Source: Streptomyces sp. NBC_01454 (GTDB taxonomy: Bacteria; Actinomycetota; Actinomycetes; Streptomycetales; Streptomycetaceae). Taken from it: a stretch of DNA of 64,000 nucleotides. The stretch lies in the NCBI RefSeq assembly GCF_036227565.1, contig NZ_CP109460.1, forward strand, positions 682,001 to 746,000, read 5' to 3'. The notes beneath the pieces are model-generated. The model worked only from the letters and a program-made list of their open reading frames with translations. It did no database searches and had not been told where the DNA came from. Position numbers and translations under genes: made by a program. Shown in pieces: positions 3,529-55,701 of the stretch (position 1 is the stretch's first letter; every line of letters starts with the position of its first letter).

Positions 3529-3555
3529 GTGCTCTCCAATCAGATACGGTACGGG

Positions 3556-3590
3556 CGACGCCCCGGCTGCTTTCCTCAGCCGGGGCGTCG
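3556..3590. terminator. 14-bp stem terminator
   Basis: Perfect 14-bp stem, CGACGCCCCGGCTG (3556-3569) pairing with 3577-3590, loop of 7 nt. It lies between the minus-strand gene that stops at 3616 and the integrase start at 3528, so the integrase probably has its own promoter. Confidence 0.75.
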
Positions 3591-3615
3591 TCACGGTCGG
3601 GACGGCTTGCAAGGC

Positions 3616-13228: not shown

Positions 13229-13245
13229 AGGGCCCTCCGGGCATG

Positions 13246-13265
13246 AAAAAGGCCCCATGCGGGGC
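13246..13265 (-). terminator. Intrinsic terminator with T-tract
   Basis: On the minus strand GCCCC-GCAT-GGGGC is followed by CTTTTT. One of the few terminators in the window with a clear T-run. It lies after the stop of the 13285-13815 gene and just before the start region of the C1 peptidase gene, so it may set the ratio between tail and lysis gene expression. Confidence 0.65.
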
Positions 13266-35127: not shown

Positions 35128-35144
35128 TGCTCACCCCTGACCGT

Positions 35145-42492: not shown

Positions 42493-42806
42493 CAGCGCCA
42501 TTCCCAGGACTGCCGGGCGTTGGCGGCGTTCTGTGCGGCATCGGCGAATTCGCGGGCGAGGTCGCCCCAGTCGGCGGGCATTTTGCGGTGGCTGGCGGCT
42601 CGTCGCAGTACGGCGGCGATGCGGCGTGCCTCGTTGTGCGGGACGCGGAACGGGCCGCCTGAGCGGTCACCGAACACCGGCTCGATGGCGCGCCAATCGG
42701 AGGCCGGCAGGACGTAGGCGAGGTGCTGGCCGAGCACGGAGATGCTCCTGTACGAGGGGCTGATCTGGCCGTTGTTGTGAGTGCCGTGCGAGATGGTCCA
42801 GCCCAT
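42492..42806 (-). CDS. Conserved small protein, unknown function
   Basis: 104 residues: a beta-rich start (WTISHGTHNNGQISPSYRSI), middle with WRAIEPVFGDRSGGPFRVP and a helical end (NEARRIAAVLRRAASHRKMP). Coupled by TGATG to the ParB-like gene. No family recognised. Confidence 0.6.
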   Translation of the reverse strand: MGWTISHGTHNNGQISPSYRSISVLGQHLAYVLPASDWRAIEPVFGDRSGGPFRVPHNEARRIAAVLRRAASHRKMPADWGDLAREFADAAQNAANARQSWEWR

Positions 42807-42875
42807 GACGGGCTCCTTTCGGATTGGCGGGCGTGGGGCCCTGTGTCGGCTTCCGGGCCCCCGGGGGGCGGATCG

Positions 42876-43094
42876 CTAGTCGTCGAGCAAGTGAGCGGGG
42901 AGCTCGTCGCGGACATGGGTGGGGAGCTTGAACGCGTTGCGCACGTAGTCCTGGTCCGACAGCTCGGTGCTGCCCTCGAGCGCGCCGCGGACCCACCCGG
43001 TGTCCATGAGGCTTCCGGCGTCGGCGACGCGCAACCAGAGCTCGCGGATGATGGCGCGCAGCTCGCTGACCTCGTTCGGAGTCGCATTGGCCAT
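42876..43094 (-). CDS. Small helical protein
   Basis: 72 residues (MANATPNEVSELRAIIRELW...), helical and acidic, AAAGGA upstream of the ATG. Function unknown; part of the polycistronic minus-strand run. Confidence 0.55.
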   Translation of the reverse strand: MANATPNEVSELRAIIRELWLRVADAGSLMDTGWVRGALEGSTELSDQDYVRNAFKLPTHVRDELPAHLLDD

Positions 43095-43108
43095 GATTCG
43101 ATGTCCTT

Positions 43109-43297
43109 TCAGCTGTAGTCGTCGGCGCGACGGAGTCCGTGGCGTCGTTCCCATTCGCGGTCGTAGACGCCAGCCCAGTTGCGGTTGAGGTCGCCTCCGG
43201 CTTTGCGGTAGGTGTCGGCGGCGTCGCCGAGTTCTTCGAGGGTCATTTCGGCGGCCTTCTTGTTGGCCCAGCTCTTGCCGGTCAGGTTGGGGTCCAT
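43109..43297 (-). CDS. Small protein
   Basis: 62 residues from ATG 43297: MDPNLTGKSWANKKAAEMTL then NRNWAGVYDREWERRHGL. AAAGGA fits this start with a 7-nt gap, whereas the ATG at 43303 would touch it. No family recognised. Confidence 0.5.
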   Translation of the reverse strand: MDPNLTGKSWANKKAAEMTLEELGDAADTYRKAGGDLNRNWAGVYDREWERRHGLRRADDYS

Positions 43298-43308
43298 GGG
43301 CATTCCTT

Positions 43309-43848
43309 TCAGTGGTTGGGGAGTTGCCGTGCGAGGGCTTCGAGGTTGGCGGCCTGCGTTTCGCGGATGTCGATGAGCCGCTCGTATTCGCGCTGGTCGG
43401 CTTTGCTGTGGGCAGTGATGCCGTACTGCTGGCGGAGGTAGGCGATGTGCCGGTTGCGGGCGCCGGGCTGGTTGAGCTGGACGGTGTGACCCAACTCGTG
43501 GATGAGGGTGCGGTCGAGTTCGCGGAGGTCGCTGTTGCGGGATGCGTTGATGGCAACCAGCGCTCCGCGGTTCGTAAGAGCGGTGGCGGCGAATGCGTGG
43601 CGGGCGTGCCAATGGTCGATGACGCGGCCGACGGCGCGGCGACGCCAGGTGGTTCGGCCTGCGAGTTCGAGGTCGGCGCGCTGGATGAGGGATGTGACGC
43701 CGTTCCCGTCGGTCAGGACTATCTCCACCTGGGGCAGTCGGCCGCCGAGATGGCGGGCGGCGAGCCGGCCGGCATGGTCGCCTATCTCGCGGATGCGCTG
43801 CTCGATGCGGCGGGCGTCCCGGCTGCGGCAGTCGATGGTGATGTCCAC
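43309..43848 (-). CDS. Zincin-type metallopeptidase-like protein
   Basis: 179 residues. The motif IHELGHTVQLNQPG (about residues 114-127) contains HExxH with Gly before the second His, as in zinc metallopeptidases; a third ligand (Glu in REYERLIDI or His in NRHIAYLR) is plausible. The N-terminal half is alpha-beta. The gene lies in the transfer-module operon, so a role in wall or protein processing during transfer is conceivable but unproven. Confidence 0.7.
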   Translation of the reverse strand: MDITIDCRSRDARRIEQRIREIGDHAGRLAARHLGGRLPQVEIVLTDGNGVTSLIQRADLELAGRTTWRRRAVGRVIDHWHARHAFAATALTNRGALVAINASRNSDLRELDRTLIHELGHTVQLNQPGARNRHIAYLRQQYGITAHSKADQREYERLIDIRETQAANLEALARQLPNH

Positions 43849-43863
43849 GGGGTCCTTTCGATG

Positions 43864-44427
43864 TCAGTAGCCGGTGGCCCTGTTGAGCGCGGACCAGAGT
43901 CGGTGTTCGCGGCCCCAGATGGGGTCGATGAGTGTGGTGTGGGTGGCCTTGCGAAGTTCGCGGATCGCTTGACTACCGACGCCTGGGAATGTGCTGGAGA
44001 TGAGTCGCCGGTGTCCGGGTGACCAGCCGAATCCTGTGGTTACCTCGGTGCCGGCTTCGGTGACGGGCATGCCGGGATGGCTGCGGTCACCGGGCCGGTT
44101 GGTGATGACGACGATGCCCGCACGTTCGGCCTGGGTGCGGATCCGGTCGAGGAGCTGGGGATCGGCGATCCAGCCGTCGACGGCGGCACGCTGCCGCCAC
44201 ATGCGGCCGTCGTAGCCGCGGCTGGGCGGGAGGCCGGGCTGCGAGCTGGTGGTGACATACCCGGCCCGGTTGGCGCTGGCGAGGGGGAGGATGAGGTGCC
44301 GGGTTTCAGTGTCAGGGCGGGGGTCGCCGTAGCCGGGCCAGGTGCGGATGCGGCCTTCGAGCCAGTCGGCCATGAGCCGGCCGAGGTCGGCGACGGTGCG
44401 GGCGGTCTTCCACGGGTTGGGAGGCAC
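43864..44427 (-). CDS. DUF6919-like protein
   Basis: 187 residues. TARTVADLGRLMADWLEGRI, LASANRAGYVTTSSQPG and the Arg/Trp-rich C-terminus fit DUF6919, a Streptomyces family common on mobile elements. No catalytic residues are evident; function unknown. Confidence 0.7.
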   Translation of the reverse strand: MPPNPWKTARTVADLGRLMADWLEGRIRTWPGYGDPRPDTETRHLILPLASANRAGYVTTSSQPGLPPSRGYDGRMWRQRAAVDGWIADPQLLDRIRTQAERAGIVVITNRPGDRSHPGMPVTEAGTEVTTGFGWSPGHRRLISSTFPGVGSQAIRELRKATHTTLIDPIWGREHRLWSALNRATGY

Positions 44428-44445
44428 AGCGTTCCTTTCAGGGAG

Positions 44446-44976
44446 TTAGATGCCGCGTGCGTCGGCGCGGCTGGCGGCGTGGCCGAGGATGCGGGCGGGC
44501 ATGTGCCCGTCGCGTTGCCGGTCGTTCCAGCTGGCGATGGTTTCGGCGCTGGGGTCGAACTCGTTGCGGACGATGTCGAGGAGGAGGGTGCAGGCGTCGT
44601 CGGCTTCGGATCGACTGCCGGCTTCGGCGCGGATGACGCCGATCAGGCAGGCGGCGCCCTGCTCGTCGCGAAGCCGGCCGGTGCACCAGCCGTCGCGGAG
44701 GAGCCTGGTGTGGGCTCGGTGGAAGAGGGCGGCAATCGGCGTCCGATACGGCTGCAGCGCCGGGGCGGTGGGCGCGTCCACGGGGCCGCGGATCACGTCG
44801 GCCAGGTCAAGCGGTGCGGTGGCAATCCGGGCGTCCACGGCCAGGGCGGCGAGGGCGAGGCGCTCGTCGAAGGTCAGGGTGGGGGCCCACGCTGACTGCT
44901 CGGGCTCGGTCAGGGTCGGGGCGATGGGCGCGGCGGCCTGGTCGAGGGCGGCGGCGGTCAGCGTGGGCGCGGGCAT
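44446..44976 (-). CDS. DUF6197-like protein
   Basis: 176 residues, helical, with the signature WCTGRLRDEQGAACLIGVIR around residue 98-117 known in DUF6197 proteins of actinobacterial phages and plasmids. The second part (DDACTLLLDIVRNEFDPSAE, SWNDRQRDGHM) is also typical. Function unknown. Confidence 0.7.
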   Translation of the reverse strand: MPAPTLTAAALDQAAAPIAPTLTEPEQSAWAPTLTFDERLALAALAVDARIATAPLDLADVIRGPVDAPTAPALQPYRTPIAALFHRAHTRLLRDGWCTGRLRDEQGAACLIGVIRAEAGSRSEADDACTLLLDIVRNEFDPSAETIASWNDRQRDGHMPARILGHAASRADARGI

Positions 44977-44981
44977 CTAGA

Positions 44982-45143
44982 TCACTTCTCCTTCTTGTTC
45001 ATGAGCTGGGTGGCGGCGTCGGTGAGTCCTCCGGCAGCGGCCTGGTTTCCCTTGTCGCGGGCGATGCGAGCGGCGTTCGAGTACTGGTGGCTGAGCTCCT
45101 CGCGCTTCTGCTTGTCCTGGTTGGAGCTGGAGTTGTTGGGCAT
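44982..45143 (-). CDS. Small Asn/Gln/Lys-rich protein
   Basis: 53 residues from ATG 45143 with GAGAGGA upstream: MPNNSSSNQDKQKREELSHQ and a helix AARIARDKGNQAAAGGLTDA. Polar and charged. It begins directly downstream of the CGTGACG repeat array, so its promoter or leader, if any, would overlap the array. Confidence 0.6.
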   Translation of the reverse strand: MPNNSSSNQDKQKREELSHQYSNAARIARDKGNQAAAGGLTDAATQLMNKKEK

Positions 45144-45218
45144 ATCGGGTCCTCTCGTGGTTGGCGCCTCGGGCGTTGGCCGAGGTTCGCATTTATGGAT
45201 CTTTCGGGCATCTGAGCC

Positions 45219-45362
45219 CGTGACGTTGCCCGTGACGGGGCGTTACGCCGCAGGTCAGAAACTTGATGGAGGGCGTGACGGGGGCGTGACGCGTCACGGG
45301 CAGATCGGCTCCGTCACGCCCTCGTCACGGGTGGCGTCACGGCCGTGACCTGCGACGTCACG
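45219..45362. repeat. CGTGACG heptamer array with mirror orientation
   Basis: CGTGACG occurs at 45219, 45231, 45274 and 45285; its complement CGTCACG at 45292, 45312, 45323, 45335 and 45356 (first bases). Variants are CGTTACG at 45241 and CGTGACC at 45344. So all exact forward copies precede all reverse copies, and they meet in a perfect 14-bp palindrome (45285-45298). Several spacings are 11-12 bp, close to one helical turn. It lies between the FtsK-like gene (stop 45380) and the next small gene, in a 236-bp gap. Such clusters bind proteins cooperatively: a transfer locus (clt), a partition site, or a replication iteron set. Confidence 0.8.
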
Positions 45363-45379
45363 CCCTCGACGTCGGCGGG

Positions 45380-47407
45380 TCAGGTGCCTTCGGGGGCTTC
45401 CTCGCCGGTGAGCTCGATCAGCGTGGCGAGGTAGAAACCGCGACCTCCGCGCCACTGCTTGGTCTTCATATCGACTGCCGGGGCCACCTCGGTGGCGGCA
45501 TCTCGCAGAGCCTTCAGGTACCGGTCGCGGGCGATGTCGATCTCCTCGTCCTCTTCCGGCGCCCACGACTCTGGGGCTGCAGCGGCCACGTACTCGTACA
45601 GGTCGGCGGCCGTCATGCGGGCAGGGTCGTCAGCGGCGGTGAACGCGGCCCGCGCCAGCTCGATCGCCTCGGGCAGTTGCTCGTGAGGCTGGACGGTGTC
45701 GAGGTCGTCGAAAGTGACACCCGCCAGATCCAGGGACTCCGGATCGAACCAGGGCCGGCCAGCGGCTGCGCGCTCGGCGGCGCGCCGCTTGCCCTCCTCG
45801 TAGGTCATCGGGATGAACTTGTGGATGAGGGGGTCGGTGGAGCCGCCGCCCATGATGTACGCCTTGCCGGCGTCCGCCGGGTCCTCGCCCTGGGCGGGGT
45901 GGAGTCGGTCCGAGCGCCAGCCGTTGGCGCCGGCTCCGGCTCCGAAGACCTGCACGATGTCCTGGTGCCTGCTCGGACCGACGATCTTCAGGGCGATGGA
46001 GTCGGCGATGGCCGCGCCGATCGAGTCCTTCGTGGCTTCCTGAGCGGCGAGGCCGATCTGAACGCGGGACTTGCGGCCAACCCGCAGGATCGCGACTACC
46101 AACGCCTTGGCTCGCTGCGACAGCTGCGGGTACTCGTCGATCAGGGTGACGATCGCCGGATAGCGGGGCGACGGAATCCAGTTGTCGCCCATGCCGAGCT
46201 TGCCGAGGAGCATCGCCCGCGCCTTCGCGATCTTCAGGAGTTTCTCCAGCACCGCCTCAATGATGTGCATCTGATCGGCGCCGACCACCCGCACCCCCAC
46301 CGCGGCAGCCAGGGGCTCCAAGCCGTTGCCTCCCGGGTCGAGGTCGACGACGATGACGTCCTCGCAGTCGGTGAGGGTGTCGCCGATCGTCCTGAAGGTC
46401 ACCGACTTACCGCCGCCGGAGCTGGCGATCACGATGAAGTGCTGGCCGAGGAACGACAGCATGGTGTGCTGCCCGTCCATCCGCTTGGCGACCAGCGCCT
46501 TGTCGCGCATAGCGATGCTGTTGGGCTTGCGGACCGGCAGCGCTGGCATGTCTTCGAACGGGTCGCCCTCGACGAGGCGCAGCACGACCTGGGCGCGCTT
46601 CTGCCGCATGGGCTGGCACAGCAGCCCGTCTGTTGGCAGGTCGAGGGGTGTCTCCAGCTCGGGCGCTTTGGCAATCAGGTCGGCGGGGGTGCCCTTCTTC
46701 AGCCGGACGGTGATCTCCCATCCCCAGGGGTAGCGACGGCCGGCCTCGACCGCGGCCACGTTGATGCCCTCAGACACGAGGGCACGGCGCACGCACTCGG
46801 CGGCCTCGTCACGGGTGTTGGCGTCGGCGATCGGGAACGGGTCGTTCTCGCCGGGCTCGATGGCGATCAGGCCGCTGGTCGCGTCCGTGAAGGCGGACTG
46901 CCCTGCACCTGGCCGGCCGTGCCACGTGCCGACGGCGTAGGCGCCGAGGGCGAGCAGCACATCGACCCATCCCCCGCCGACGACCACCGCGGTGGTGATG
47001 CCCGTGGTGCCAGCCGCACTCCACCCGCCGGTCTTGATCCAGTGCCAGCGCTTGTGGACCCGGTACTCGGCGCGACGCTCCTTGACGAGCTCCTTGGCTG
47101 CGGTCTCCGCGGCCGTGTTCCCGGCCGACGCCTTCCTCTCCGCAATCGCGGACTGGATCAACTGCGGGTAGTCGTCGCGGCGGGCCTCCAGCCACCGCCG
47201 GGTGAGGTTGCGGTAGCCGCGGACGGTCCAGCCGATGTAGAGCTGGTTCTCGGCGGCGTGCTCGCGGGCGCGGGCGGCGAGTTCCTTCCCGGAGTCGCTC
47301 CAGGCGGGCCGCAGGGTCTCGCCCTGGTGCTCGACTACCGCGCCTTCGATGGACTCGGGCTTGACGAGGCTGAGGGTCGGCCGGGTGTCCTCGGCGACGG
47401 TCGCCAT
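45380..47407 (-). CDS. FtsK/SpoIIIE-type DNA translocase (TraB-like)
   Basis: 675 residues from ATG 47407, chosen for AGAGGAAA upstream; ATG 47452 is an alternative. An N-terminal cytoplasmic part is followed by a hydrophobic pair of segments (about 126-163, AAGTTGITTAVVVGGGWVDV and LLALGAYAVG). The motor domain has Walker A ASSGGGKSV (328-336) and Walker B IVTLIDEYPQ (419-428). Streptomyces conjugation uses a single such hexameric translocase (TraB, TraSA) to move double-stranded DNA between hyphae, recognising 8-bp repeats near the 3' end of its own gene; here the CGTGACG array is in that place. Phages do not normally carry a membrane FtsK. Confidence 0.88.
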   Translation of the reverse strand: MATVAEDTRPTLSLVKPESIEGAVVEHQGETLRPAWSDSGKELAARAREHAAENQLYIGWTVRGYRNLTRRWLEARRDDYPQLIQSAIAERKASAGNTAAETAAKELVKERRAEYRVHKRWHWIKTGGWSAAGTTGITTAVVVGGGWVDVLLALGAYAVGTWHGRPGAGQSAFTDATSGLIAIEPGENDPFPIADANTRDEAAECVRRALVSEGINVAAVEAGRRYPWGWEITVRLKKGTPADLIAKAPELETPLDLPTDGLLCQPMRQKRAQVVLRLVEGDPFEDMPALPVRKPNSIAMRDKALVAKRMDGQHTMLSFLGQHFIVIASSGGGKSVTFRTIGDTLTDCEDVIVVDLDPGGNGLEPLAAAVGVRVVGADQMHIIEAVLEKLLKIAKARAMLLGKLGMGDNWIPSPRYPAIVTLIDEYPQLSQRAKALVVAILRVGRKSRVQIGLAAQEATKDSIGAAIADSIALKIVGPSRHQDIVQVFGAGAGANGWRSDRLHPAQGEDPADAGKAYIMGGGSTDPLIHKFIPMTYEEGKRRAAERAAAGRPWFDPESLDLAGVTFDDLDTVQPHEQLPEAIELARAAFTAADDPARMTAADLYEYVAAAAPESWAPEEDEEIDIARDRYLKALRDAATEVAPAVDMKTKQWRGGRGFYLATLIELTGEEAPEGT

Positions 47408-47458
47408 GGTGGTTTCCTCTCGGTGCTCGCGGGTGCTGAGGTGGGTGCTCATGGCGGG

Positions 47459-48805
47459 TTACTTCTCTTCGGCCTGGACGACGTCACGCAGGCGCATGAG
47501 GTAGGCGTCGGCGCCGCCGACTCCGGCCTCGGTGCGGATCTTCTTGACGCTCAACTTGTCGGCTCCGCCGAGGGTCTGCGCGAGGGCGCGGACGGCGGTG
47601 AGGTCGGCTTCAGCGAGGGGCTTGTCGGGCACCTTCGCGGAAGTGCGGCCAGGAGCCCGGTTCCCTTTGCGCCCTAGGGGATTTTGCCCCCCAGAGGGCC
47701 TATCGGAGAGCTTGAGCGCAGATCCGCCACCGGCGCCGCGCGGGCCGCCCTGAGGGCCCCTGTCGCGCGTTCCTCCGGCGGTTCCGCCGTCCCCAGGGGA
47801 GGGGTCGAAGACGTCCGCGAGGAAGAGGTCGACGGCGACGCTTTCGCGGGTCCGATCGGAGGCGGCCATGAGCTCGTCGATAGCCTCGCGAGCGACCTCG
47901 CGGGCGGCGAGCGTGCCCACCGTGACGCCGACCGGCAGCATGTGCAGGTTGTCCCACGCGGCCTTCCATGCCTCGTCCCGAGTGATCGCTCCGATCGGGT
48001 GGGCGGCGACGATCCGCTCGTATTCGTTGAAGACCTCACCCCACTTGGCCTTGCGCCGCTCGTCCTCAAGCTTGTGACGCTTGGCCGCTTCGCGCTCCTC
48101 GGCGGCCCGCTTCTTCGCGGCCTCCTTCTCCTTCGCGCGCTGCTCCCGACTGCGGTTGTCAACAGCGGCCTTGCTCTCCAGCGCCTGCCGCACCTCAGCC
48201 AGCACCGGCCCGATCACCGACGTGGCAGCGAGGGCTACACCGGCGACCAGCCCGTACTCGGTCGCCCCGTGGGTGAGGTTGATGTAGCCGGCAACCGAGG
48301 CGAGGGCCGCGGTGAGGATCCAGAACGGCCACCGCGGCAAGCCCTTACGGTGCGCCCACTGTGTACCCAGGACGCCGACCCAGGCGAGAAGTTCGAGGAA
48401 GAACGGCACCGGCGCCATGAGCCAGGCCAGGTCACCACTCGTGTCGCCCTTGCGGTGCAGCTTCAGGAAGTACGACAGCTGGGCCGGCAGTGCGGCGAGC
48501 AGCCCGAGTGTGAGGACGATGTTGGTGACGAGCTTGAAGCGGGTGCCGTTGTCGGCGGCCTCCTCGCGCTTCTGCGCCTTGTCCTGCTGCTCGTCGGCCT
48601 TGGCGTCGCGCTGGATGCCGGCGAGTCGTCGGTTCAGCTTGGCCTGCTCGACCTGTTCGGCCAGCTTGCTGGTCTCGGTCTTGGCTGCGCCTGCCGCTAC
48701 GGCCTGCTCGGCGGCCTTCGTCTCGGCTGCGATCCTCGCGGCTTCGGCGCGTGTCTTCGCCGCCTCGGCCTCGCGCTCCTCCCAGGAGCGGTATCCGCTG
48801 GTCAT
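47459..48805 (-). CDS. DUF2637 membrane protein (SpdB-like)
   Basis: 448 residues: a long N-terminal coiled coil (EREAEAAKTRAEAARIAAET and onward to about 85), four hydrophobic segments between about 90 and 205 (LVTNIVLTLGLLAALPAQL, PVPFFLELLAWVGVLG, FWILTAALASVAGYI, GLVAGVALAATSVIGPVLAE), a second charged coiled coil, then a helical C-terminal domain. DUF2637 proteins accompany TraB/TraSA genes on Streptomyces elements and are thought to act in intramycelial spread. It ends 51 nt before the translocase start, so they share a transcript. Confidence 0.85.
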   Translation of the reverse strand: MTSGYRSWEEREAEAAKTRAEAARIAAETKAAEQAVAAGAAKTETSKLAEQVEQAKLNRRLAGIQRDAKADEQQDKAQKREEAADNGTRFKLVTNIVLTLGLLAALPAQLSYFLKLHRKGDTSGDLAWLMAPVPFFLELLAWVGVLGTQWAHRKGLPRWPFWILTAALASVAGYINLTHGATEYGLVAGVALAATSVIGPVLAEVRQALESKAAVDNRSREQRAKEKEAAKKRAAEEREAAKRHKLEDERRKAKWGEVFNEYERIVAAHPIGAITRDEAWKAAWDNLHMLPVGVTVGTLAAREVAREAIDELMAASDRTRESVAVDLFLADVFDPSPGDGGTAGGTRDRGPQGGPRGAGGGSALKLSDRPSGGQNPLGRKGNRAPGRTSAKVPDKPLAEADLTAVRALAQTLGGADKLSVKKIRTEAGVGGADAYLMRLRDVVQAEEK

Positions 48806-48838
48806 GTCGTTCAGTCCCTTCGGGGGTGGGTTGCCGGG

Positions 48839-49054
48839 TTAGGCGGCGGTGTCGTAGTCGTGGGCGGGGCGGGGTGCGGGGATCTTGGCGCGCTGATCTT
48901 CAATGGCGCCGTCCCCGGCGACAGCAACGGCGAGCAGCACGGCGATCAGGATGCGAACGCCGACTGGGGCGTCAAGACCGATGAACCAGGACAGGCCGGC
49001 GGCCATCAGAGCGAGTCGGAGGCGGGTGAGTGCGATCAGAAGGGCGTGCTGCAT
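48839..49054 (-). CDS. Small membrane protein next to DUF2637 gene
   Basis: 71 residues, with a hydrophobic stretch from 4 to 47 that can form two helices (ALLIALTRLRLALMAAGLSW, VRILIAVLLAVAVAGDG) and a polar tail. Its place before DUF2637 and FtsK resembles the small Spd proteins of Streptomyces plasmids. Confidence 0.65.
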   Translation of the reverse strand: MQHALLIALTRLRLALMAAGLSWFIGLDAPVGVRILIAVLLAVAVAGDGAIEDQRAKIPAPRPAHDYDTAA

Positions 49055-49151
49055 GGCGTGTCCTTCGACGGGGGTGAGGGTGGGTGCTGCGTCGGATCTC
49101 CAGGCCGCCGGTGCCGGTGCGGGACCGGCGGCGAGGGCTACCGGCGAGCGG

Positions 49152-49352
49152 TCAGCGCCCGCGCTTGGTGCCGCCGAACATGCGGGGCACCTTGGCGGCC
49201 TTCTCGTTGGCGATCCTGTTCAGGCGCTGGTACTCGGGGGTCTCGTCCCGGATGCCGGCCTTGAACTCCCGGTCGCTGTTCTCGTGGAGTGCCTTGTCAG
49301 CAGCCTTCATCTCGACGATGGCCTGCTTCTCTTCCGGGGTCTTTCCGAACAC
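49152..49352 (-). CDS. Small charged protein
   Basis: 66 residues from a GTG at 49352 with AGGAGG upstream (VFGKTPEEKQAIVEMKAADK...). Charged and helical. Comparable small proteins are common upstream of spd/tra genes. No function known. Confidence 0.6.
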   Translation of the reverse strand: MFGKTPEEKQAIVEMKAADKALHENSDREFKAGIRDETPEYQRLNRIANEKAAKVPRMFGGTKRGR

Positions 49353-49457
49353 GTGGTCCTCCTGTGTGGGCTGGGGCCTGGCCGGTTGGCCGGCTCCCTG
49401 CGGGCCCGGCGCCAGGTGGTGCGAGTTCTGGCGTTGCTCCGGGGCCACAGGCAGCGG

Positions 49458-49655
49458 TCAGATCAGGGACTGGAGGCGGGCGATGCGCTGCTGGCGTTCG
49501 GAGATGCCGTGTTCGAGCGTGTAGATCTCGGTGTCGGGGACCTGGCCGGAGGTGATCGCGCCACGCATGTTCGCGATGTCGGCCCGCAGCTTCGTGATGA
49601 TCGCCTGAGCCTGCTCGGTCTCGGTGCGGGGACGCTGATCGGTGATGGACGGCAT
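49458..49655 (-). CDS. Small coiled-coil protein
   Basis: 65 residues, helical and coiled-coil-like (AQAIITKLRADIANMRGAIT, ISERQQRIARLQSLI), GGGAGAG before the ATG. Function unknown. Confidence 0.6.
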   Translation of the reverse strand: MPSITDQRPRTETEQAQAIITKLRADIANMRGAITSGQVPDTEIYTLEHGISERQQRIARLQSLI

Positions 49656-49667
49656 GAGCGGCTCTCC

Positions 49668-49901
49668 CTAGTGGGAGTCCGGGTCAGGGCCCGGCTCATA
49701 GGTGTGGCCTTCGGAGCAGGCACGGCTGTCGATGTCGGTGACCATCCGCCAGCCGGGCGGCACGAACCCGGACTTCTCAGCTCGGAGCCGGCATCCGCAG
49801 TCCTGGCAGGCCCAGATGTCGCCGCCATGTGACTGCAAGGGCTTGCCGCAGCAGGTGGCGTCCTGCGGCCGGATCGGCGACTCGACGGTGACCTCGGCCA
49901 T
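49668..49901 (-). CDS. Small zinc-ribbon protein
   Basis: 77 residues from ATG 49901 in a TGATG overlap. Two Cys groups, CCGKP (17-21) and CQDCGC (32-37), then a Cys near the end (RACSEGHTYE). Likely zinc-bound; function unknown. Confidence 0.6.
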   Translation of the reverse strand: MAEVTVESPIRPQDATCCGKPLQSHGGDIWACQDCGCRLRAEKSGFVPPGWRMVTDIDSRACSEGHTYEPGPDPDSH

Positions 49902-50236
49902 CAGCGGCGGGCCTTCTGGCGGCCCCGACTCCCCCGCACCTTGAGGACGTCGCCGGGCTCGGCGTACACCTGGTCGTCGTCGCACTCGAACATTGCGCGG
50001 ATGTGGCGGCCAGGTTTCTCGTCGTACATCGGCCCGAAGCGCCTGCACGCCGACTGGGCGTCGACTCCGCCTGCGGTCGGCGTGCCGAAAATCGGCAGCC
50101 GATCGGTGAACACCCACTCCTTCCAGAGCGGTTCCTCGCCCCACGGGTTCACGGAGGTCTCGATCGTGTAGTAGGGCATGTTCAGCTTCGCCTGAAGGCC
50201 GAACTTCTTGGCGTCTTTGGGCTGCCAAACGGTCAT
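49901..50236 (-). CDS. Conserved protein of transfer module
   Basis: 111 residues, beta-rich (YYTIETSVNPWGEEPLWKEW, RHIRAMFECDDDQVYAEPGD). No family recognised. Coupled to the zinc-ribbon gene that follows. Confidence 0.55.
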   Translation of the reverse strand: MTVWQPKDAKKFGLQAKLNMPYYTIETSVNPWGEEPLWKEWVFTDRLPIFGTPTAGGVDAQSACRRFGPMYDEKPGRHIRAMFECDDDQVYAEPGDVLKVRGSRGRQKARR

Positions 50237-50290
50237 GGCTGTCTCCTCAACTCGGGGGTGCGGGGTGGGTGGTGGCGGGTCGGGCGGTGA

Positions 50291-50530
50291 TCAGGCGGCG
50301 CGGGTGTAGTGGGCCTGGAGGCCGCGGATCTCATCCATCAGTCGCGGCTCGGCCGGGTGCGCCCCGTCGAAAGCGATGGCGGCGAGGATCGCGTCCTGCA
50401 TGCCGCCGTAGTCGTTGGCGGCGGAGGCGGAGGCGTAGCGGCTGACGATCCCGGCACGCTCGGTCCGGTGGGCCTCGGCGGCCTTCGTGCCCTGGGCGTA
50501 CTCGGCGTCGGAGATCAGGTGAAGCGACAT
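50291..50530 (-). CDS. Small helical protein
   Basis: 79 residues from ATG 50530: MSLHLISDAEYAQGTKAAEA and a helical end (LMDEIRGLQAHYTRAA). GGAAG upstream. Function unknown. Confidence 0.55.
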   Translation of the reverse strand: MSLHLISDAEYAQGTKAAEAHRTERAGIVSRYASASAANDYGGMQDAILAAIAFDGAHPAEPRLMDEIRGLQAHYTRAA

Positions 50531-50579
50531 GGTGGTGGTCCTTCCGGAAAATGTGGGCGGTGGCAGGGGGTGGCGCGGG

Positions 50580-50813
50580 TCAGGCGGTGGGCCGCGGAAG
50601 CTGACGGCACCGTTCGGCGTGGGTTGCAGCCCAGCTCGTGACGGCGACCGCGTAGCTATTTCTGGTGCCGCCCTGGCAGCCGCGGCACTCAGCGGCAAAG
50701 CCGTCGTCGGTGACATCGACGGTGATATTCGGGTCGGCGAGCGCAGCGCCCGCGAGGGTGAGGTAGCGGTTGACGACGCCCTCCGGCCAGGCGGTCTCGG
50801 TCTTTGCGGGCAT
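50580..50813 (-). CDS. Small protein with Cys/His site
   Basis: 77 residues from ATG 50813. CRGCQGG (44-50) and HAERC near the end form a possible zinc site; between them a helix SYAVAVTSWAATHAERC. This C-x2-C ... H-x3-C pattern recurs in small Streptomyces mobile-element proteins. Function unknown. Confidence 0.6.
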   Translation of the reverse strand: MPAKTETAWPEGVVNRYLTLAGAALADPNITVDVTDDGFAAECRGCQGGTRNSYAVAVTSWAATHAERCRQLPRPTA

Positions 50814-50845
50814 GGCGGTATGGCCTTTCGGAAGGAGTGAGCGGG

Positions 50846-51127
50846 TCAGGCGTTGCGGCGACTGGGGAGCCACAGGCGGCGCTTGGGCTCCGACGCTGGG
50901 GGCTCCTCGGCGGCGGGCTTGTCCAGCGCGGCAGCGATCCGGCCGAGGCTGTCGGCGATCTGGGCGAGGTGCGCGTTCGTCGCCTGCTGCTCAGTGACCA
51001 GGGCCAGGAGCGCGTGGGGCACAGCCCTCTGCGGACCGTCCTGGGCGGAGAAGCCGTTCATCGGGTTCTTGCCGTCGACGCCGTCCTCGGCGCGGCTGAC
51101 GTGGATATCGGTCGGGGTACCAGGCAT
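50846..51127 (-). CDS. Small protein, helical C-terminal half
   Basis: 93 residues: a polar N-terminal half and a helix HALLALVTEQQATNAHLAQI continuing through ADSLGRIAAALDK, then a basic tail. No family recognised. Confidence 0.5.
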   Translation of the reverse strand: MPGTPTDIHVSRAEDGVDGKNPMNGFSAQDGPQRAVPHALLALVTEQQATNAHLAQIADSLGRIAAALDKPAAEEPPASEPKRRLWLPSRRNA

Positions 51128-51184
51128 GACGGCATGGCCTCTCGGTGGAGGTGGTGCGGGATGGGGTGAGATGCGAGGTAGTGC

Positions 51185-51224
51185 GCCGCGCTCGGGGGCT
51201 GGGGGTGGTCACCCCGAGCGCGGC
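51185..51224. terminator. 13-bp stem hairpin inside operon
   Basis: GCCGCGCTCGGGG (51185-51197) pairs with 51212-51224. It stands between the promoter-proximal HTH group (51227-51746) and the long downstream run, so it may attenuate transcription of the transfer genes. Confidence 0.7.
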
Positions 51225-51226
51225 AG

Positions 51227-51319
51227 TTAGAGGGAGCCGGCGGGAGTCCGCTGCGGAAGCGGCGGCAGGGCGGGCGGGGTGTCGGCCCGGTCGTGGCGGG
51301 GCTCAGGCTCGGCCGGCAT
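51227..51319 (-). CDS. Tiny proline-rich peptide
   Basis: 30 residues (MPAEPEPRHDRADTPPALPP...), starting in a TGATG overlap with the preceding gene. Translation coupling supports it; the composition is low-complexity and function unknown. Confidence 0.4.
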   Translation of the reverse strand: MPAEPEPRHDRADTPPALPPLPQRTPAGSL

Positions 51320-51516
51320 CAGGCCGCCGCCAACTCGATCGCGGTGGCGACGGTCGTCTTGCCGCGGAGCGCGGTGACGCCCGACGAGCGGCGGGCCGCA
51401 TCGGCGTCACCCAGGGACTCGGCCAGACGAGCAGCCGGGCGGGGGCGGACGTAAGAGCCAGCTGCATGAGCGGCGACATCTGCGGCGGTCATGGCGGGGG
51501 CGGTGGAGGTAGTCAT
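51319..51516 (-). CDS. Small protein coupled to HTH gene
   Basis: 65 residues from ATG 51516 (TGATG overlap with the HTH gene): helical (AADVAAHAAGSYVRPRPAAR, KTTVATAIELAAA). No family recognised; possible partner of the HTH protein. Confidence 0.55.
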   Translation of the reverse strand: MTTSTAPAMTAADVAAHAAGSYVRPRPAARLAESLGDADAARRSSGVTALRGKTTVATAIELAAA

Positions 51517-51746
51517 CAGGCCACCTCGCCGATCGCCGGGGTGACGGCGGCGTCGCGAAGGAAAGCCTCGACGGCTTCCTCCGCGATACGGAAGCGGGGA
51601 CGTACAGATCCCTTGGCGATGTTGATCGCCTCGATGGCCCCAATTCGGATGAGTTCGCGGATGTGCTGCGGGGTGCTGCCGATGCGCTTGGCGGCCTGGC
51701 CGGTGGTGAGGTAGTCGCTCACAGGAGCGGCTGAGGATGGCGTCAT
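51516..51746 (-). CDS. Excisionase-like HTH protein
   Basis: 76 residues from ATG 51746 with GGGAGC upstream. DYLTTGQAAKRIGSTPQHIR then ELIRIGAI is a MerR/excisionase HTH_17 domain, and the C-terminal half is a short beta-helix tail. In pSAM2-like elements such a protein (Xis) is encoded near replication and transfer genes and works with the integrase. It is the first gene of the long minus-strand transcript that begins at the GntR-type operator (51793-51828). Confidence 0.75.
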   Translation of the reverse strand: MTPSSAAPVSDYLTTGQAAKRIGSTPQHIRELIRIGAIEAINIAKGSVRPRFRIAEEAVEAFLRDAAVTPAIGEVA

Positions 51747-51779
51747 TGGGTGCTCCCATGCGGTCGACGGGCTGACACC

Positions 51780-51828
51780 TAGATAGAAACACATTGCTAT
51801 GGAGCAATCAAGAGCGCTCCATAGCAAT
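51780..51828 (-). promoter_or_regulatory. Promoter with GntR-type operators
   Basis: On the minus strand TTGCTC (51807-51802) and TATCTA (51785-51780) are 16 nt apart and form a plausible -35/-10 pair. The -35 box lies inside ATTGCTATGGAGC (51793-51805), which has an exact inverted copy at 51816-51828. The first arm also forms a smaller palindrome ATTGCT-ATGG-AGCAAT. The motif TTGCTmTrGAGC recurs at the GntR gene's own promoter, so GntR repression of the HTH/transfer operon is likely. Confidence 0.7.
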
Positions 51829-51847
51829 ACAGCGAATCCAGGCCATC

Positions 51848-51878
51848 AAAAAGCCCCCGCCAGTCGATGGCGGGGGCT
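51848..51878 (-). terminator. Intrinsic terminator of GntR gene
   Basis: 11-bp perfect stem AGCCCCCGCCA (51852-51862) with 51868-51878, loop of 5, followed by TTTTT on the minus strand. It lies 13 nt past the stop of the GntR gene. Confidence 0.85.
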
Positions 51879-51890
51879 GGAAAGCGCAGG

Positions 51891-52646
51891 TCAGGAAGGA
51901 AAGTCGTACAGCAGTAGGTACCTGGACGCGTCCAGAACCATGCGGTTCACCTCGACCACCCGATCAGCCGAGTCGTAGGCGTACCTATTGATTTCCACCA
52001 CGGGCGTCGCGGGAGGGAGGGCCAGGTCCGCAACCTCGGAGGCCGCCGGCATACGACACCGCAACTCCTCCCGGAAGCGCGCCGGCTTGTGCCCTGCATC
52101 GGCGAGGCGCGCATAGATCCCGCCAGGACCAGTATCGATCTGGGTGATGCGCGTCCCCCGCGCCAGGTCATCCGGAATGTGCGATGTGGCGCGCATTACG
52201 GCCACCCCATCCACGAGATACCTCCGACCGCGACGCCACACGAGCTCCCCCTCATCGAGCTCCAGAACGCGCGCAACCTCCGGCGTGGCAGGCAACTGCT
52301 CGATTTGAGCGTCATCGACCTGGAGCTGGCGGTCCTCGACATCGACCTCCCACATCGATCGCCCTTCACCCCACTGCTCAGTCGACAGCCTCTTGAGGGC
52401 GTTGCGAGCGATCGGGCGCCATGCTCGGACGGATACGCCGGAGCCGACGCGAGACTCGACAATCCCCTCGTCGCGAAGTGCACCGAGAGCCTGCCGGACG
52501 GTGCCTAGCGCTACGGCGTACTCCTCCCGAAGCTTCCTCTCAGGGGGGAGCTTGTCGCCGACCTGGAACTCTCCGTCATCGATTCGCCTACGCAAGTCGT
52601 TGGCGATCTCCCGGTACTTCAGCGGTTCGCCGGGCTTACGTGGCAC
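51891..52646 (-). CDS. GntR-family repressor, KorSA-like
   Basis: 251 residues from a GTG at 52646 with GAGGGAGG upstream. Residues 8-75 are a winged helix (LKYREIANDLRRRIDDGEFQ, LREEYAVALGTVRQALGALR, VGSGVSVRAW); residues 95-245 are a UTRA domain (EVARVLELDEGELVWRRGRR, ending NRMVLDASRYLLLYDFP). In Streptomyces AICEs and plasmids GntR proteins of this kind (KorSA of pSAM2, TraR of others) keep transfer genes silent. Three nearby promoter regions contain its probable operator, including its own. Confidence 0.88.
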   Translation of the reverse strand: MPRKPGEPLKYREIANDLRRRIDDGEFQVGDKLPPERKLREEYAVALGTVRQALGALRDEGIVESRVGSGVSVRAWRPIARNALKRLSTEQWGEGRSMWEVDVEDRQLQVDDAQIEQLPATPEVARVLELDEGELVWRRGRRYLVDGVAVMRATSHIPDDLARGTRITQIDTGPGGIYARLADAGHKPARFREELRCRMPAASEVADLALPPATPVVEINRYAYDSADRVVEVNRMVLDASRYLLLYDFPS

Positions 52647-52667
52647 GTGACCTCCCTCTACATGGAT

Positions 52668-52763
52668 TCATCTAGAGCAACGTTACCTGCTGTAGTTGCC
52701 ATTGGGTTGGCGCGGGATTGGGAGCAGCCCGAGTCGGCACTAGCCATAAATTGCTCTAGAGCG
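52668..52763. promoter_or_regulatory. Two GntR-type operator copies flanking intergenic promoters
   Basis: TCTAGAGCAA (52671-52680) and its exact reverse complement TTGCTCTAGA (52751-52760) face each other across 70 bp. The first lies 25 nt upstream of the GntR start, the second in front of the + strand DUF6907 gene; each begins with TTGCTC in the direction of the gene it precedes, as at 51802. The second extends to TTGCTCTAGAGC. They probably bind the GntR protein and regulate both directions. Confidence 0.7.
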
Positions 52764-52805
52764 CTACGGTGTGCTGTGTAGCCACTGCGTCACTACGAAC
52801 GCACG

Positions 52806-52835
52806 AAGGCCGGACGGTTGCTGCCGTCCGGCCTT
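52806..52835 (+). terminator. 12-bp stem between promoter and DUF6907 gene
   Basis: AAGGCCGGACGG (52806-52817) pairs perfectly with 52824-52835, loop TTGCTG, then a second weak hairpin (AGCGAG...CTCGCT). It is on the + strand path from the operator at 52751 to the gene at 52895, about 45 nt from the likely promoter; it may be an attenuator, or the end of a very short RNA. Confidence 0.65.
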
Positions 52836-52894
52836 GGCTCAGCGAGCTGCGAACTCGCTGATCAGTGATCCGTCTCGTCAAAGAGGAGTCACCC

Positions 52895-53296
52895 ATGAGC
52901 GTAGCAACCACTGCCCCTGCCGTCGCCGTGTCGACCGCCACGCCCGTCGTTCCGGTCCAGCCCTCCACTCCCCAGGCCGCCTCGCATCCGACTCCCTGTC
53001 CGGCGTGGTGCAAGGATCGCTGTCATGTCGCCGGCCACCACTTTGGGCCGACGGCGACGTGGCACTGGTCACCGCAGTACGTGCTCGGCAATCCGCGTCC
53101 GCTCTCCGACGATAGCCCGGTGATCCTGACGGCGGAGTTGTCGCGCGGCGATGAGGGTGACGGGGTCGGCGAGGCGGTGCTCTACGTGCAGGGCATGACG
53201 GACATCGACTTGTCGGCGGCTGAGGCCGACATCTTCATCGCTCAGGCGCAGGCGTTCGTGGACACGCTGCGCGTACTGCGCGCCCAAATGGGCTGA
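52895..53296 (+). CDS. DUF6907-like protein
   Basis: 133 residues from ATG 52895 with AAAGAGGAG upstream. The signature PCPAWCKDRCHVAGHHFGPT followed by WHWSPQYV (Cys/His cluster) and a C-terminal half with AVLYVQGMTDIDLSAAEADI fit DUF6907, frequent on Streptomyces mobile elements and near transfer genes. Function unknown. Confidence 0.75.
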   Translation: MSVATTAPAVAVSTATPVVPVQPSTPQAASHPTPCPAWCKDRCHVAGHHFGPTATWHWSPQYVLGNPRPLSDDSPVILTAELSRGDEGDGVGEAVLYVQGMTDIDLSAAEADIFIAQAQAFVDTLRVLRAQMG

Positions 53297-53311
53297 CACC
53301 CCGCACTTCCC

Positions 53312-53341
53312 CGGCCGGGCAGCCCTAGAGCTGCCCGGCCG
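53312..53341. terminator. 12-bp stem terminator
   Basis: CGGCCGGGCAGC (53312-53323) pairs with 53330-53341, loop CCTAGA-like of 6 nt. It follows the DUF6907 gene. Confidence 0.8.
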
Positions 53342-53433
53342 TTCTCATACCCGCGGGCGTGGTCCCGCGAGATCCAGGAGTTGGCCTTGGGTGTACTGGG
53401 CTGCGCGTCTGCCTGCCTGTGGGCGGGGGCGCG

Positions 53434-54249
53434 ATGAAGGTCGTCAGGGTTCTGCCGGAGACCGGCTGGACCGGCGTGGACAACGCGGTGGCGAGGAGCC
53501 GCCGGATCAGCTGGCGAGCAAAGGGCCTGCTGCTGGAGCTGTTGAGCTATCCGCCGGACAACGACATCACGCTGGCGAAGCTGGCTGGGTGGGGCGCCAC
53601 CTCGCGCAAGGAGGGCTACACGGCAGAGGGCCGGGAGGCGCTACAGATGGCGATGCGCGAGCTGGAGCGGGAGGGCTATGTCGTCCATGTGCGGCGGCGC
53701 GGGGACCGGGGGCGGTGGGAGACGACGACTTACGTGTCCACGGCGCCGGAGAGGTTGCCGCAGGTCGCACCGAGTACGGGTTCTCCGCGTTCGGTCGACC
53801 AGTACTCGGCGGAGCAGCGCTCGGTCGACCAGCGTTCGGTAGACCAGTCCCTAAGTACTTGTAAGACGGACGACAACATGGACAAGAAGACGGACGAAGG
53901 AGAGGAAGGCTTGGAATACTCCTCCGCACTCGCTGCCGCTCGTGCGGGCCAGCAAGCCGGCCCGCAAGATCCACGACGCGAGGAACTTCGCCACCTGTAC
54001 GAGGCCGCGAACGACCTTGACGATGACCGGCTACGCCGGCTGCTCCTCCAGTTCGAGAAGAAGCGGCCACGGATCTACAGGGAGCAGCGGCAGGCGGCCC
54101 TCGGCCAGCTGGAGCGCGAGAGTCCGGCGATCCTGAAGAGCCCCGACTCGGTGCGGTCGATGGACCTGCTGAGCTACAAGTACGCCCTGATGCACTACAC
54201 GAGCGACGACAAACCGGTGCCGGACTGGCTGGCGAGATTCCCCCGCTGA
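53434..54249 (+). CDS. Winged-helix protein with SVDQ repeats
   Basis: 271 residues. The N-terminal half (ISWRAKGLLLELLSYPPDND, LAGWGATSRKEGYTAEGREA, MRELEREGYVVHVRRRGDRG) is a winged helix of the kind found in replication initiators and helix-turn-helix proteins of Streptomyces elements. A degenerate repeat SVDQ occurs three times (plus SAEQ) around 125-148, in a linker that is probably disordered. The C-terminal helical domain (LRRLLLQFEKKRPRIYREQR) may bind a partner. A replication-initiation or regulatory role is possible. Confidence 0.7.
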   Translation: MKVVRVLPETGWTGVDNAVARSRRISWRAKGLLLELLSYPPDNDITLAKLAGWGATSRKEGYTAEGREALQMAMRELEREGYVVHVRRRGDRGRWETTTYVSTAPERLPQVAPSTGSPRSVDQYSAEQRSVDQRSVDQSLSTCKTDDNMDKKTDEGEEGLEYSSALAAARAGQQAGPQDPRREELRHLYEAANDLDDDRLRRLLLQFEKKRPRIYREQRQAALGQLERESPAILKSPDSVRSMDLLSYKYALMHYTSDDKPVPDWLARFPR

Positions 54250-54334
54250 CCTGCTGAAATCCCCGCCGATCAAGCGTGGGGTGCGGGACAATGGGACTAC
54301 CGCAAATCAGGATCAACTCGAAGGGGTTTTGGCT

Positions 54335-54409
54335 GTGAGCGAGTGTGATCACGACTGGGTGCAGTGGTCGGGTGCAACGCGTTGCCGCAAATGCGGGGCG
54401 ACTGCGTAG
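54335..54409 (+). CDS. 24-residue zinc-finger peptide
   Basis: GTG start at 54335 with AGGGG upstream: VSECDHDWVQWSGATRCRKCGATA. The pattern CxH ... CRKCG is a compact zinc site; such peptides are widespread in Streptomyces. A strong terminator follows. Confidence 0.55.
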   Translation: MSECDHDWVQWSGATRCRKCGATA

Positions 54410-54425
54410 CGACGCCTGAATGATG

Positions 54426-54455
54426 GTGGTGGGGCCGAGTAGTCGGCCCCACCAC
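54426..54455 (+). terminator. 13-bp stem terminator
   Basis: GTGGTGGGGCCGA (54426-54438) pairs perfectly with 54443-54455, loop GTAG. It separates the small zinc peptide gene from the kinase-like gene that starts 18 nt later. Confidence 0.8.
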
Positions 54456-54472
54456 TGTCGAGGAGGTCTCTG

Positions 54473-55264
54473 ATGGCGCTGCGGATCGACTGGGCTGACC
54501 TGCCTGCCGCTGCCCGTGCGGCGATTGAGGCGCGCACCGGGGCCGTGTTGGCGGCGGAGCCGATCGCTGATGGTCTCACCTGCGCCGTGGCGGCGCGGCT
54601 GGTCACGTGCGCTGGGGCGTTCTTCGTCAAGGGTGTGCCTGTCGAGGACGGGCGGGGCCGCGCGGCGCAACGCTGGGAGTTGGCCGTCAACCCGCAGGTG
54701 TGTTCGGCGAGTCCGGTGCTGCGCTGGCAGGTTGTGGCCGACGGCTGGGATCTGCTGGTCTTCGATCATGTCGACGGCGAGCATGCGGACTTGTCTCGGC
54801 CGGCGGACCGTGAGCTGGTCGCCGGGGTGCTGCAGTCGGTGCAGGGCGTTGCAGCTCCCGCGGGGGTTCCGTCGTTCGCGGACCGGTTCTCCGATGTCTT
54901 GGACGCCGGCGAGCTGGTTCTGCTGTCCGGGGATGCGCTGCTCCACACCGACACCAACCCGCACAACCTGCTCGTCGGGGCGGGGCGGGCTTGGCTGGTG
55001 GATTGGGCGATGCCTGCTGCCGGACCTGCTTGGGTGGATGTGACCTATACGGCGGTGCGGCTGCTGGAGGCTGACGTGTCGGCCCCCGAGGCGCTCGGCT
55101 GGGCGTGGCAGTTCCCGTCGTGGCGGGCGGCCGATCCGGCGGCGTTGGAGGCGTTGGTGGTGGGGACGTGCCGCCAGTGGGAGTCGGTCGTGGGCGCGGC
55201 GGGTGCTCGGCAGAGCAACGCCCGGTTCGCGGCGCTTCTCGGGGCGACAGTCGCTGTGCCGTAG
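54473..55264 (+). CDS. Aminoglycoside phosphotransferase-like kinase
   Basis: 263 residues with GAGGAGG upstream. The APH-type catalytic loop [13 protein letters not shown] (about 161-173) and the metal-binding VDWAMP (about 181-186) are present; the N-lobe lysine is in FFVKGVP. The substrate is unknown; many such proteins phosphorylate small molecules other than antibiotics. It lies 20 nt upstream of the Nudix gene, and the pair is often found together near GntR genes in Streptomyces. Confidence 0.8.
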
Positions 55265-55284
55265 CCAATCGACAGTGGTCTGCG

Positions 55285-55701
55285 ATGGACGGAGTGGGTA
55301 TGGGCGAGAGGCCGGTAGCGGCTGCCGTGATCGTGCGGGATAGTCGCGTACTGCTGGTGCGCCGCGCGGTCGAGGAGGGTGAGCTGCGCTGGCAGTTCCC
55401 GGCGGGCAAGCTCGAGGCCGGCGAGTCGCCGGAGCAGGCGGCAGTGCGCGAGACCCAGGAGGAGACCGGGCTGACCGTCGAGGTGGTCAAGACCCTGGGT
55501 GACCGGGTGCATCCGAAGACGGGCCGGCTGATGCACTACGTGGCCTGCGCTCCGATCTCCGGCGAGGCGTATGTCGCCGATGCGGAGGAGCTGGCCGAGG
55601 TGGCGTGGGTCGCGCACGGGGAGATCACGGACTATGTGCCGTACCCGCTGGCGCCGATGGTGCAGGAGTACCTCGACGCCGAGTTGGCGCCGGCCGAGTA
55701 G
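55285..55701 (+). CDS. Nudix hydrolase, possible Pif-type immunity protein
   Basis: 138 residues (starts at 55285 or 55300). The complete Nudix box [20 protein letters not shown] then TGL lies at residues 41-63, with Glu47, Arg55, Glu56 and the EExG acid pair. Nudix enzymes cleave nucleoside diphosphates linked to another group. In pSAM2 the Nudix protein Pif prevents transfer between cells that already hold the element and lies by KorSA. The neighbourhood here fits that, but Nudix genes are common and sequence identity to Pif cannot be tested here. Confidence 0.85.

Follow-up and report, generated by a model that had tools for sequence, protein, structure and literature searches.

The DNA examined here, a 64,000-bp window of the Streptomyces sp. 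NBC_01454 genome (C1:682001-746000 of 9.46 Mb; positions without this prefix are those of the window), belongs, by its sequence, to a single integrated element, bounded by attachment (att) repeats, that holds virion genes together with a DNA transfer module. The module includes an FtsK-fold DNA translocase (Tra), a membrane protein encoded directly upstream of it (M), a series of small open reading frames (ORFs), a GntR-type regulator and, just beyond the 3′ end of the translocase gene, a mirrored array of 7-bp repeats that we regard as a candidate clt (Table 1). The att repeats, integrase, terminase, portal, tape measure and endolysin together point to the prophage of a temperate siphophage.

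A perfect 49-bp direct repeat (attL/attR) bounds an element of 84.1 kb (C1:681346-765461), its copies lying at window coordinates -654 and 83413, with the element extending past the window at both ends. No third copy occurs inside the element, where the next best match is 30/49, and in the flanks chromosomal genes run to within ~580 bp of the window's left edge and resume at coordinate 83535. The corresponding attB was empty in 13 of 14 loci of other genomes (one of these seen only as 36 residues at a contig end); the site is called empty because the gene left of attL precedes the gene right of attR in those genomes. A tyrosine integrase adjoins attR (PF14659, E=1.3e-7; PF00589 below cut-off only), and to its left lie genes for RecT, a DnaB helicase and a cytosine methylase, a gene that weakly matches a beta clamp, and a small divergent gene, without a Pfam hit, that is read as a putative repressor. 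Two adjacent independent insertions were rejected on the evidence of the single att pair, the lack of a third copy and the empty sites; with one att pair and empty sites, the virion half and the module must therefore have entered jointly or been joined within the element. An att search confined to the left 14 kb of the window gave nothing useful, and no tRNA was found in scans of the window and two 20-kb flanks.

The preliminary description of this DNA had recognized a set of head, tail and lysis genes beside the module; terminase, portal-MuF, tape measure and endolysin were all recovered by family searches, but a major capsid protein was not, no capsid family being hit among the element proteins scanned. 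In a whole-genome search, the phrog_2 match of the terminase (33706-35379) passes upstream of the ORF start, across three in-frame TGA codons, and the ORF itself retains a Walker A motif. A LAGLIDADG-type homing endonuclease gene (32464-33636) is situated between the portal and terminase genes, and a papain-like cysteine peptidase gene (12380-13258), which has a relative in pZL12, adjoins that of the endolysin.

Table 1. Features of the element within the window. E values are from Pfam and PHROG searches.
Feature	Position	Strand	Evidence and remarks
Amidase endolysin	11558-12310	-	Amidase_2 E=1.8e-20; phrog_1493 E=2.1e-36
Tail tape measure protein	17296-21264	-	phrog_58 E=2.9e-77
Portal-MuF fusion protein	29732-32446	-	PF04860 E=4.6e-13; PF04233 E=2.5e-11
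Terminase large subunit	33652-35127	-	phrog_2 E=3.2e-36; Terminase_6N E=7.7e-5
Genes between translocase and virion block	42142-44976 (42142, 42492, 43309, 43864, 44446)	-	Some conserved with module
Candidate clt, mirrored 7-bp array	45219-45362	.	Just 3′ of translocase stop codon; repeat scan
FtsK-fold DNA translocase (Tra)	45380-47452 (ORF)	-	690 amino acids; likely start 47407 gives 675
M, 448-amino-acid membrane protein	47459-48805	-	Directly upstream of translocase gene
71-amino-acid protein (possible Spd-like)	48839-49054	-	Two hydrophobic stretches (hydropathy)
Small ORFs of module	49152-51127	-	ORF and GC-frame calls; those scanned without family
HTH_17/excisionase-like protein	51516-51827	-	HTH_17 E=1.5e-7; phrog_66 E=8.4e-6; 59% relative in G138
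GntR-UTRA regulator, KorSA-like by class	51891-52646	-	GntR E=4.3e-21; UTRA E=1.8e-23; phrog_10724 E=2.4e-51
Phage-type replication initiator-like protein	53359-54249	+	phrog_4707 E=2.9e-10; unmatched in four mapped relatives
Nudix hydrolase	55285-55701 (longest ORF 55105-55701)	+	PF00293 E=2.2e-23; 59% relative near G015 module

The translocase matches phrog_12531, an FtsK/SpoIIIE-like family, at E=1.1e-115, carries Walker A (ASSGGGKS) and Walker B (LIDEY) motifs that are conserved in an alignment of 24 sequences, and yields an AlphaFold model (predicted local distance difference test, pLDDT, 74) whose top Foldseek matches are the FtsK motor structures 6t8o and 2ius (E ~1e-14). Its initial label as an FtsK/SpoIIIE translocase thus holds for family and fold but not for Pfam, in which FtsK_SpoIIIE (PF01580) gave no hit up to E=1 and no model exceeded its cut-off; similarly, of the several membrane segments ascribed to it, hydropathy analysis predicts one, near residues 151-174 of the 690. 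PF01580 matches the genome at seven places, all of them outside the element, and a sequence search of the PDB returned no relative. Among homologues not from phages, the closest one found belongs to plasmid pFP1, whose Tra is 47% identical over 426 amino acids by BLASTP and likewise falls under the PF01580 cut-off (E=0.0094). Rather than joining chromosomal FtsK, the translocase groups with prophage proteins, pFP1 Tra and a phage FtsK-like protein, in an analysis that carries a long-branch warning. A chromosomal FtsK paralogue was rejected, since the FtsK of this genome has no BLASTP match to the translocase at E<1; it does weakly match two translocase homologues (E=0.002 and 0.053). The variable C-terminal domain (124 amino acids) is predicted to be weakly winged-helix-like, and a fold search with it gave no TraB or FtsK-gamma structure among the matches listed, which excludes nothing. 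A second member of the translocase family is encoded elsewhere in the same genome (G000:C3:362306-363475, L021), on a contig of 388 kb.

Homologues of the translocase were found at 37 places in 33 of 392 same-genus genomes (E≤1e-40; designated below by genome number). At 19 of the 37, a phrog_9 terminase is encoded within 30 kb, in every case on the translocase strand and 3.6-20.9 kb downstream, a count that covers phrog_9 only and in which the short contigs of G070 and G041 allow no decision; the window's own terminase, a phrog_2 member, occupies the same relative position. Among further same-genus genomes, five of nine have a terminase likewise placed, 6-22 kb downstream, and in other genera a phrog_9 terminase was near the translocase in none of 17 genomes. 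Two equally scoring homologues in G367 (C111:60696 and 150577) stand 90 kb apart, each with its own terminase at an equal distance, and may represent a duplicated prophage.

Four near relatives (G138, G387, G015 and G371) were mapped, as 20-kb pieces at whose borders split genes may be missed. All four share the translocase together with portions of both the module and the lysogeny end; of the genes at 11-38 kb, only the tape measure (over short stretches, in G138 and G371) and the endolysin (in part, in G387) had a match. All carry virion genes of their own, with a phrog_9 terminase in 4/4 and, where tested, a phrog_104 portal, a phrog_10 capsid protein and a tape measure in 2/2 each. G138, G387 and G015 each have an element of 58-62 kb, enclosed by att repeats, that contains the module, virion genes and an integrase match (in G015, 27% over 58%); their att repeats, of 60, 117 and 133 bp, lie in sequence contexts unlike that of the window, and G371 has the same genes, though no att repeat was found. 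The IMG/VR database holds two close relatives as viral contigs (62,110 and 58,870 bp), plus two more distant ones. The relatives retain the module alongside another terminase and capsid set, and the search for genomes in which phage and transfer genes stay together, which the preliminary description had proposed, found three of the four mapped relatives keeping both inside their own att repeats.

The array beside the translocase gene comprises four forward units (CGTGACG, at 45219, 45231, 45274 and 45285) and five reverse units (CGTCACG, at 45292, 45312, 45323, 45335 and 45356); the two orientations meet at 45291/45292, and many neighbouring units are spaced 11-12 bp apart. Also within it are the boxes GCAGGTC (45250) and GACCTGC (45347). 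It accounts for 9 of the 30 CGTGACG/CGTCACG sites in the window, and with a mirrored-repeat score of 9 it ranks first among 2794 scored segments of the 84 kb (runner-up elsewhere: 8, at 55921). Many relatives, and pFP1 too, have the same mirrored layout 3′ of their translocase gene, with differing units (GTGAC, TGCTC, CGTCT/CGTCC, CTCTAC). Scored without supervision, 17 of 34 loci reached at least 7 downstream of the translocase, as against 0/34 inside the gene, 0/5 for PF01580 control genes and 45/2000 random segments; these array tests omit seven of the 37 places (the second places in G000, G371, G351 and G367, plus G174, G111 and G061). The same threshold was reached at 13 of 26 held-out loci from genomes unused before (26 of 47 places, being best matches with a new locus after one G016 repeat was dropped, and including G651, a pFP1 copy, and G404, which contains a masked run). 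Chance clustering of repeats was rejected on the basis of the ranking within 84 kb, the controls and the random segments. Several homologues from another genus than the window's, g14 (among L092-L113), have arrays of still other units, such as CCGGT, GATCG and ATCGG; these loci may perhaps be plasmids or actinomycete integrative and conjugative elements (AICEs), because no phrog_9 terminase lies nearby.

As a cluster of short repeats near tra, the array has the anatomy of a clt. The clt of pWTY27, 175 bp at the 3′ end of traA, consists of 7-bp repeats, is bound by TraA and is required for transfer, and the TraB of pSVH1 reads 8-bp repeats through a C-terminal winged helix (PMC3583192). The array is probably the site that the translocase reads, as predicted from the way in which its unit tracks the C-terminal domain, even after domain exchange. 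This relationship was examined separately for the motor (window residues 190-552) and the C-terminus in 23 rows, which comprised the window and 20 of the 29 further loci retrieved, together with pFP1 and one plasmid like it. Nine loci without a clear mirrored array were left out (G149, G075, G321, G271, G224, G257, G256, G023 and G041), two of which, G075 and G257, pass a plain repeat count. Unit classes lump TGCTA (G186) and the degenerate G118 with TGCTC, and CGTCC (G198) with CGTCT, and those of G118, G351, G096 and G070 were assigned by eye because their arrays are weak (scores 0, 3, 5 and 6).

The best C-terminal match shared the unit class in 23/23 rows. In the exchange cases G382 and G170, the motors share 77 and 75% identity with the motor of G096 (unit CGTCT), but the C-termini have their relatives in the TGCTC class (43 and 48% to G367), and TGCTC is also the unit of both arrays; the units of the held-out loci G686 and G630 also fit the C-terminus better than the motor. 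For eight held-out loci with a C-terminal match of at least 45% over 100 amino acids, the C-terminus predicted the unit exactly in five, missed it by one base in two and gave a different unit in one, as against four, two and two for the nearest motor. Such a link would fit a domain that reads DNA and the site that it recognizes. Three points temper it: the best motor match shared the unit class in 22/23 rows, the agreement between unit and C-terminus mostly reflects shared descent, and the link rests on few exchanges. As the unit can be predicted in these rows almost as well from the motor by itself as from the C-terminus, our confidence in the explanation favoured below is slightly lowered.

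Comparison with known systems supports and sharpens the earlier view of this region as a transfer module, now with a pFP1-like Tra, a homologue of M and a candidate clt, but turns it away from pSAM2, the model first proposed, since Tra is pFP1-like and unrecognised by PF01580. Like the element, pFP1 (NC_006912) has the order GntR, small ORFs, DUF2637 membrane protein, Tra, mirrored repeat array; it differs in having a MobF relaxase, an N-terminal FtsK_gamma domain on its Tra and an array unit of CTCTAC as opposed to CGTGACG, and no virion gene appears in its incomplete gene table. The closest precedent is the plasmid-phage pZL12 (phage ZL12, GQ919031), whose circular record has phage-like and transfer-type genes in a similar broad order, with GntR, membrane protein and FtsK-like genes upstream of the phage block. 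Conjugal transfer of pZL12 requires a major tra gene and two adjacent genes (PMC3583192), and pSLE1 resembles pZL12 (PMC4487206). However, the FtsK-like protein 71c of pZL12 matches the translocase over 47 amino acids only (36%), no array lies beside its gene, and pZL12 carries ParA/ParB; no element protein matched the pZL12 ParA/ParB region by TBLASTN at E<1e-4, a search that unrelated Par proteins would escape. AICEs such as pSAM2 share with the element an integrated state, a tyrosine integrase, GntR and Nudix classes and an FtsK-type translocase, but they are defined by a Tra search with PF01580 (PMC3218068), which the element's translocase fails, and traB regions span 11.9-36.2 kb in one surveyed population (PMC9513070), compared with 84 kb including virion genes here.

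Translocase homologues also occur in 89 Streptomyces phage records, with sizes of 120-135 kb among the 60 matches listed, and because of them the preliminary argument that a phage would not need a pump of this kind is unsupported. The motors of these FtsK-like proteins (Wofford, Karimac and others) are ~51% identical over half the protein; in Wofford, the one examined, there is no array beside the gene, and the match ends before the C-terminal domain. Streptomyces plasmid-phages are already known, and what looks new is an integrating phage whose transfer locus contains a candidate clt: in the literature searched, whose coverage mostly excludes subscription papers, no title or abstract start concerned Streptomyces prophages with a TraB/clt locus.

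We consider it likely, with a probability of roughly two in three, that an integrated temperate siphophage here carries a TraB-type double-stranded DNA (dsDNA) transfer locus as a standing module. This reading is drawn from what can be seen in the sequence, namely an att-bounded element with virion genes and module, homology to pFP1 Tra, and an array linked to the C-terminal domain, and from these we infer regulation, binding, pumping and transfer as follows. In the lysogen, the GntR regulator would hold the module low; upon its release, M and the translocase would be made, and the C-terminal domain would load the FtsK-type motor onto the mirrored array beside the gene. Assembled as a hexameric ring and anchored at septa or hyphal tips, the motor could then pump excised or still integrated phage DNA, in double-stranded form, into the adjacent compartment or a mycelium in contact with it, and the integrase would reinsert the DNA there. 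Such phages may therefore spread from hypha to hypha as naked DNA as well, and the dual mobility suggested in the preliminary description gains a candidate clt in its support. More tentatively, and with real doubt, a widespread class of integrative Streptomyces phages might be conjugative, each member keeping its own pump and matching clt through swaps of capsid cassette and integration site, spreading both as virions and as naked dsDNA, and changing specificity by joint exchange of C-terminal domain and array.

TraB loci in plasmids perform both intramycelial spread and mating, and because they do both, a transfer locus for mating overlaps with a pump that serves infection by moving phage DNA through cross-walls within one mycelium. 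The latter, taken alone, is unlikely, if the most serious of the alternatives: it would suit the homologous motors of the phage records and a module with a small membrane protein of predicted Spd kind, but the array with its matching C-terminal domain points to a TraB/clt pair, and pFP1 Tra, from a plasmid, is the closest non-phage homologue found. It is very improbable that the protein manipulates host chromosome segregation or development instead of moving phage DNA. The gene ftsK is listed among actinophage genes that possibly manipulate development (PMC10117723, citing Hardy et al. 2020), yet such a role leaves unexplained both an element-borne array whose unit changes with the C-terminal domain and a gene order common to pFP1.

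The array itself could be a replication origin (iterons), an operator, a terminator or a packaging site, leaving a locus without a clt. The replication iterons of pWTY27 are also inverted 7-8 bp repeats (PMC3583192), and mirrored repeats can fold as terminators; we nevertheless judge this quite unlikely, given that an array next to the translocase gene is a feature not only of prophages but also of pFP1 and of homologues from other genera (phrog_9 terminase near 0/17), and that its unit tracks the C-terminal domain. Packaging in particular was thought unlikely because arrays also accompany pFP1 and homologues without a nearby phrog_9 terminase. Lastly, a once-conjugative plasmid locus may have been captured by a phage and now be passive cargo, as the modular mosaic might suggest, in which the four mapped relatives share the module but almost no virion genes. 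This is improbable in view of the conserved Walker motifs, the arrays, the ratio of nonsynonymous to synonymous substitution rates of the translocase (dN/dS 0.23-0.38 in three pairs; 0.23 versus G138) and the shared position upstream of a terminase at 19/37 places.

Were the element to carry a working transfer locus, phages and conjugative elements would not be separate classes in mycelial bacteria: one genome would have a diffusible and a contact route, the counting of host range, phage resistance and gene flow in Streptomyces would change, and prophage finders and AICE finders would each detect only half of such elements. The Pfam model used for finding AICE transfer genes overlooks this translocase, and the pairs of C-terminal domain and array would offer natural specificity variants for studying DNA choice by dsDNA translocases.

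Among the other module genes, the DUF2637 label given to M stands by homology to a DUF2637-annotated protein of pFP1 (26%, E=1e-9 by BLASTP), which is itself below the Pfam cut-off (E=0.002), but not by Pfam, where M had no DUF2637 hit up to E=1 and no other hit. M also matches, by BLASTP, the ORF upstream of the translocase in 13 of the 27 homologue loci where such an ORF was picked, and has no TBLASTN match in the phage collection. The supposed Spd-like protein of 71 amino acids does have two hydrophobic stretches but was assigned no family in Pfam and PHROG scans; relatives of it occur beside the module in G138 (53%) and G387 (39%), as do relatives of the small ORF at 50580-50873 in the same two genomes. 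The excisionase-like helix-turn-helix, GntR and Nudix labels were all borne out. The regulator has a 67% relative at the equivalent place in G138, and its best match in G015 and G371 (50%) is located away from the module. Between the translocase and the virion block, relatives beside the translocase were found in the four mapped elements for the genes at 42492 and 43864 (3/4 each), 44446 (2/4) and 42142 (1/4), and for 43309 in none.

In the part of the element's proteins that was scanned, the one Rep-like protein had no RepSA, RepAM or Prim-Pol Pfam hit. At the left end of the element (1223-3612), two further tyrosine recombinase genes flank an endonuclease VII gene; the larger recombinase matches pZL12 36c (41%) and the endonuclease VII matches pZL12 35c (36%). 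A UTRA-domain (GntR-type) gene and its neighbour lie at 21-902, also at the left end, and have relatives at the left end of the G387 element, one of them also at the far end of the G015 element.

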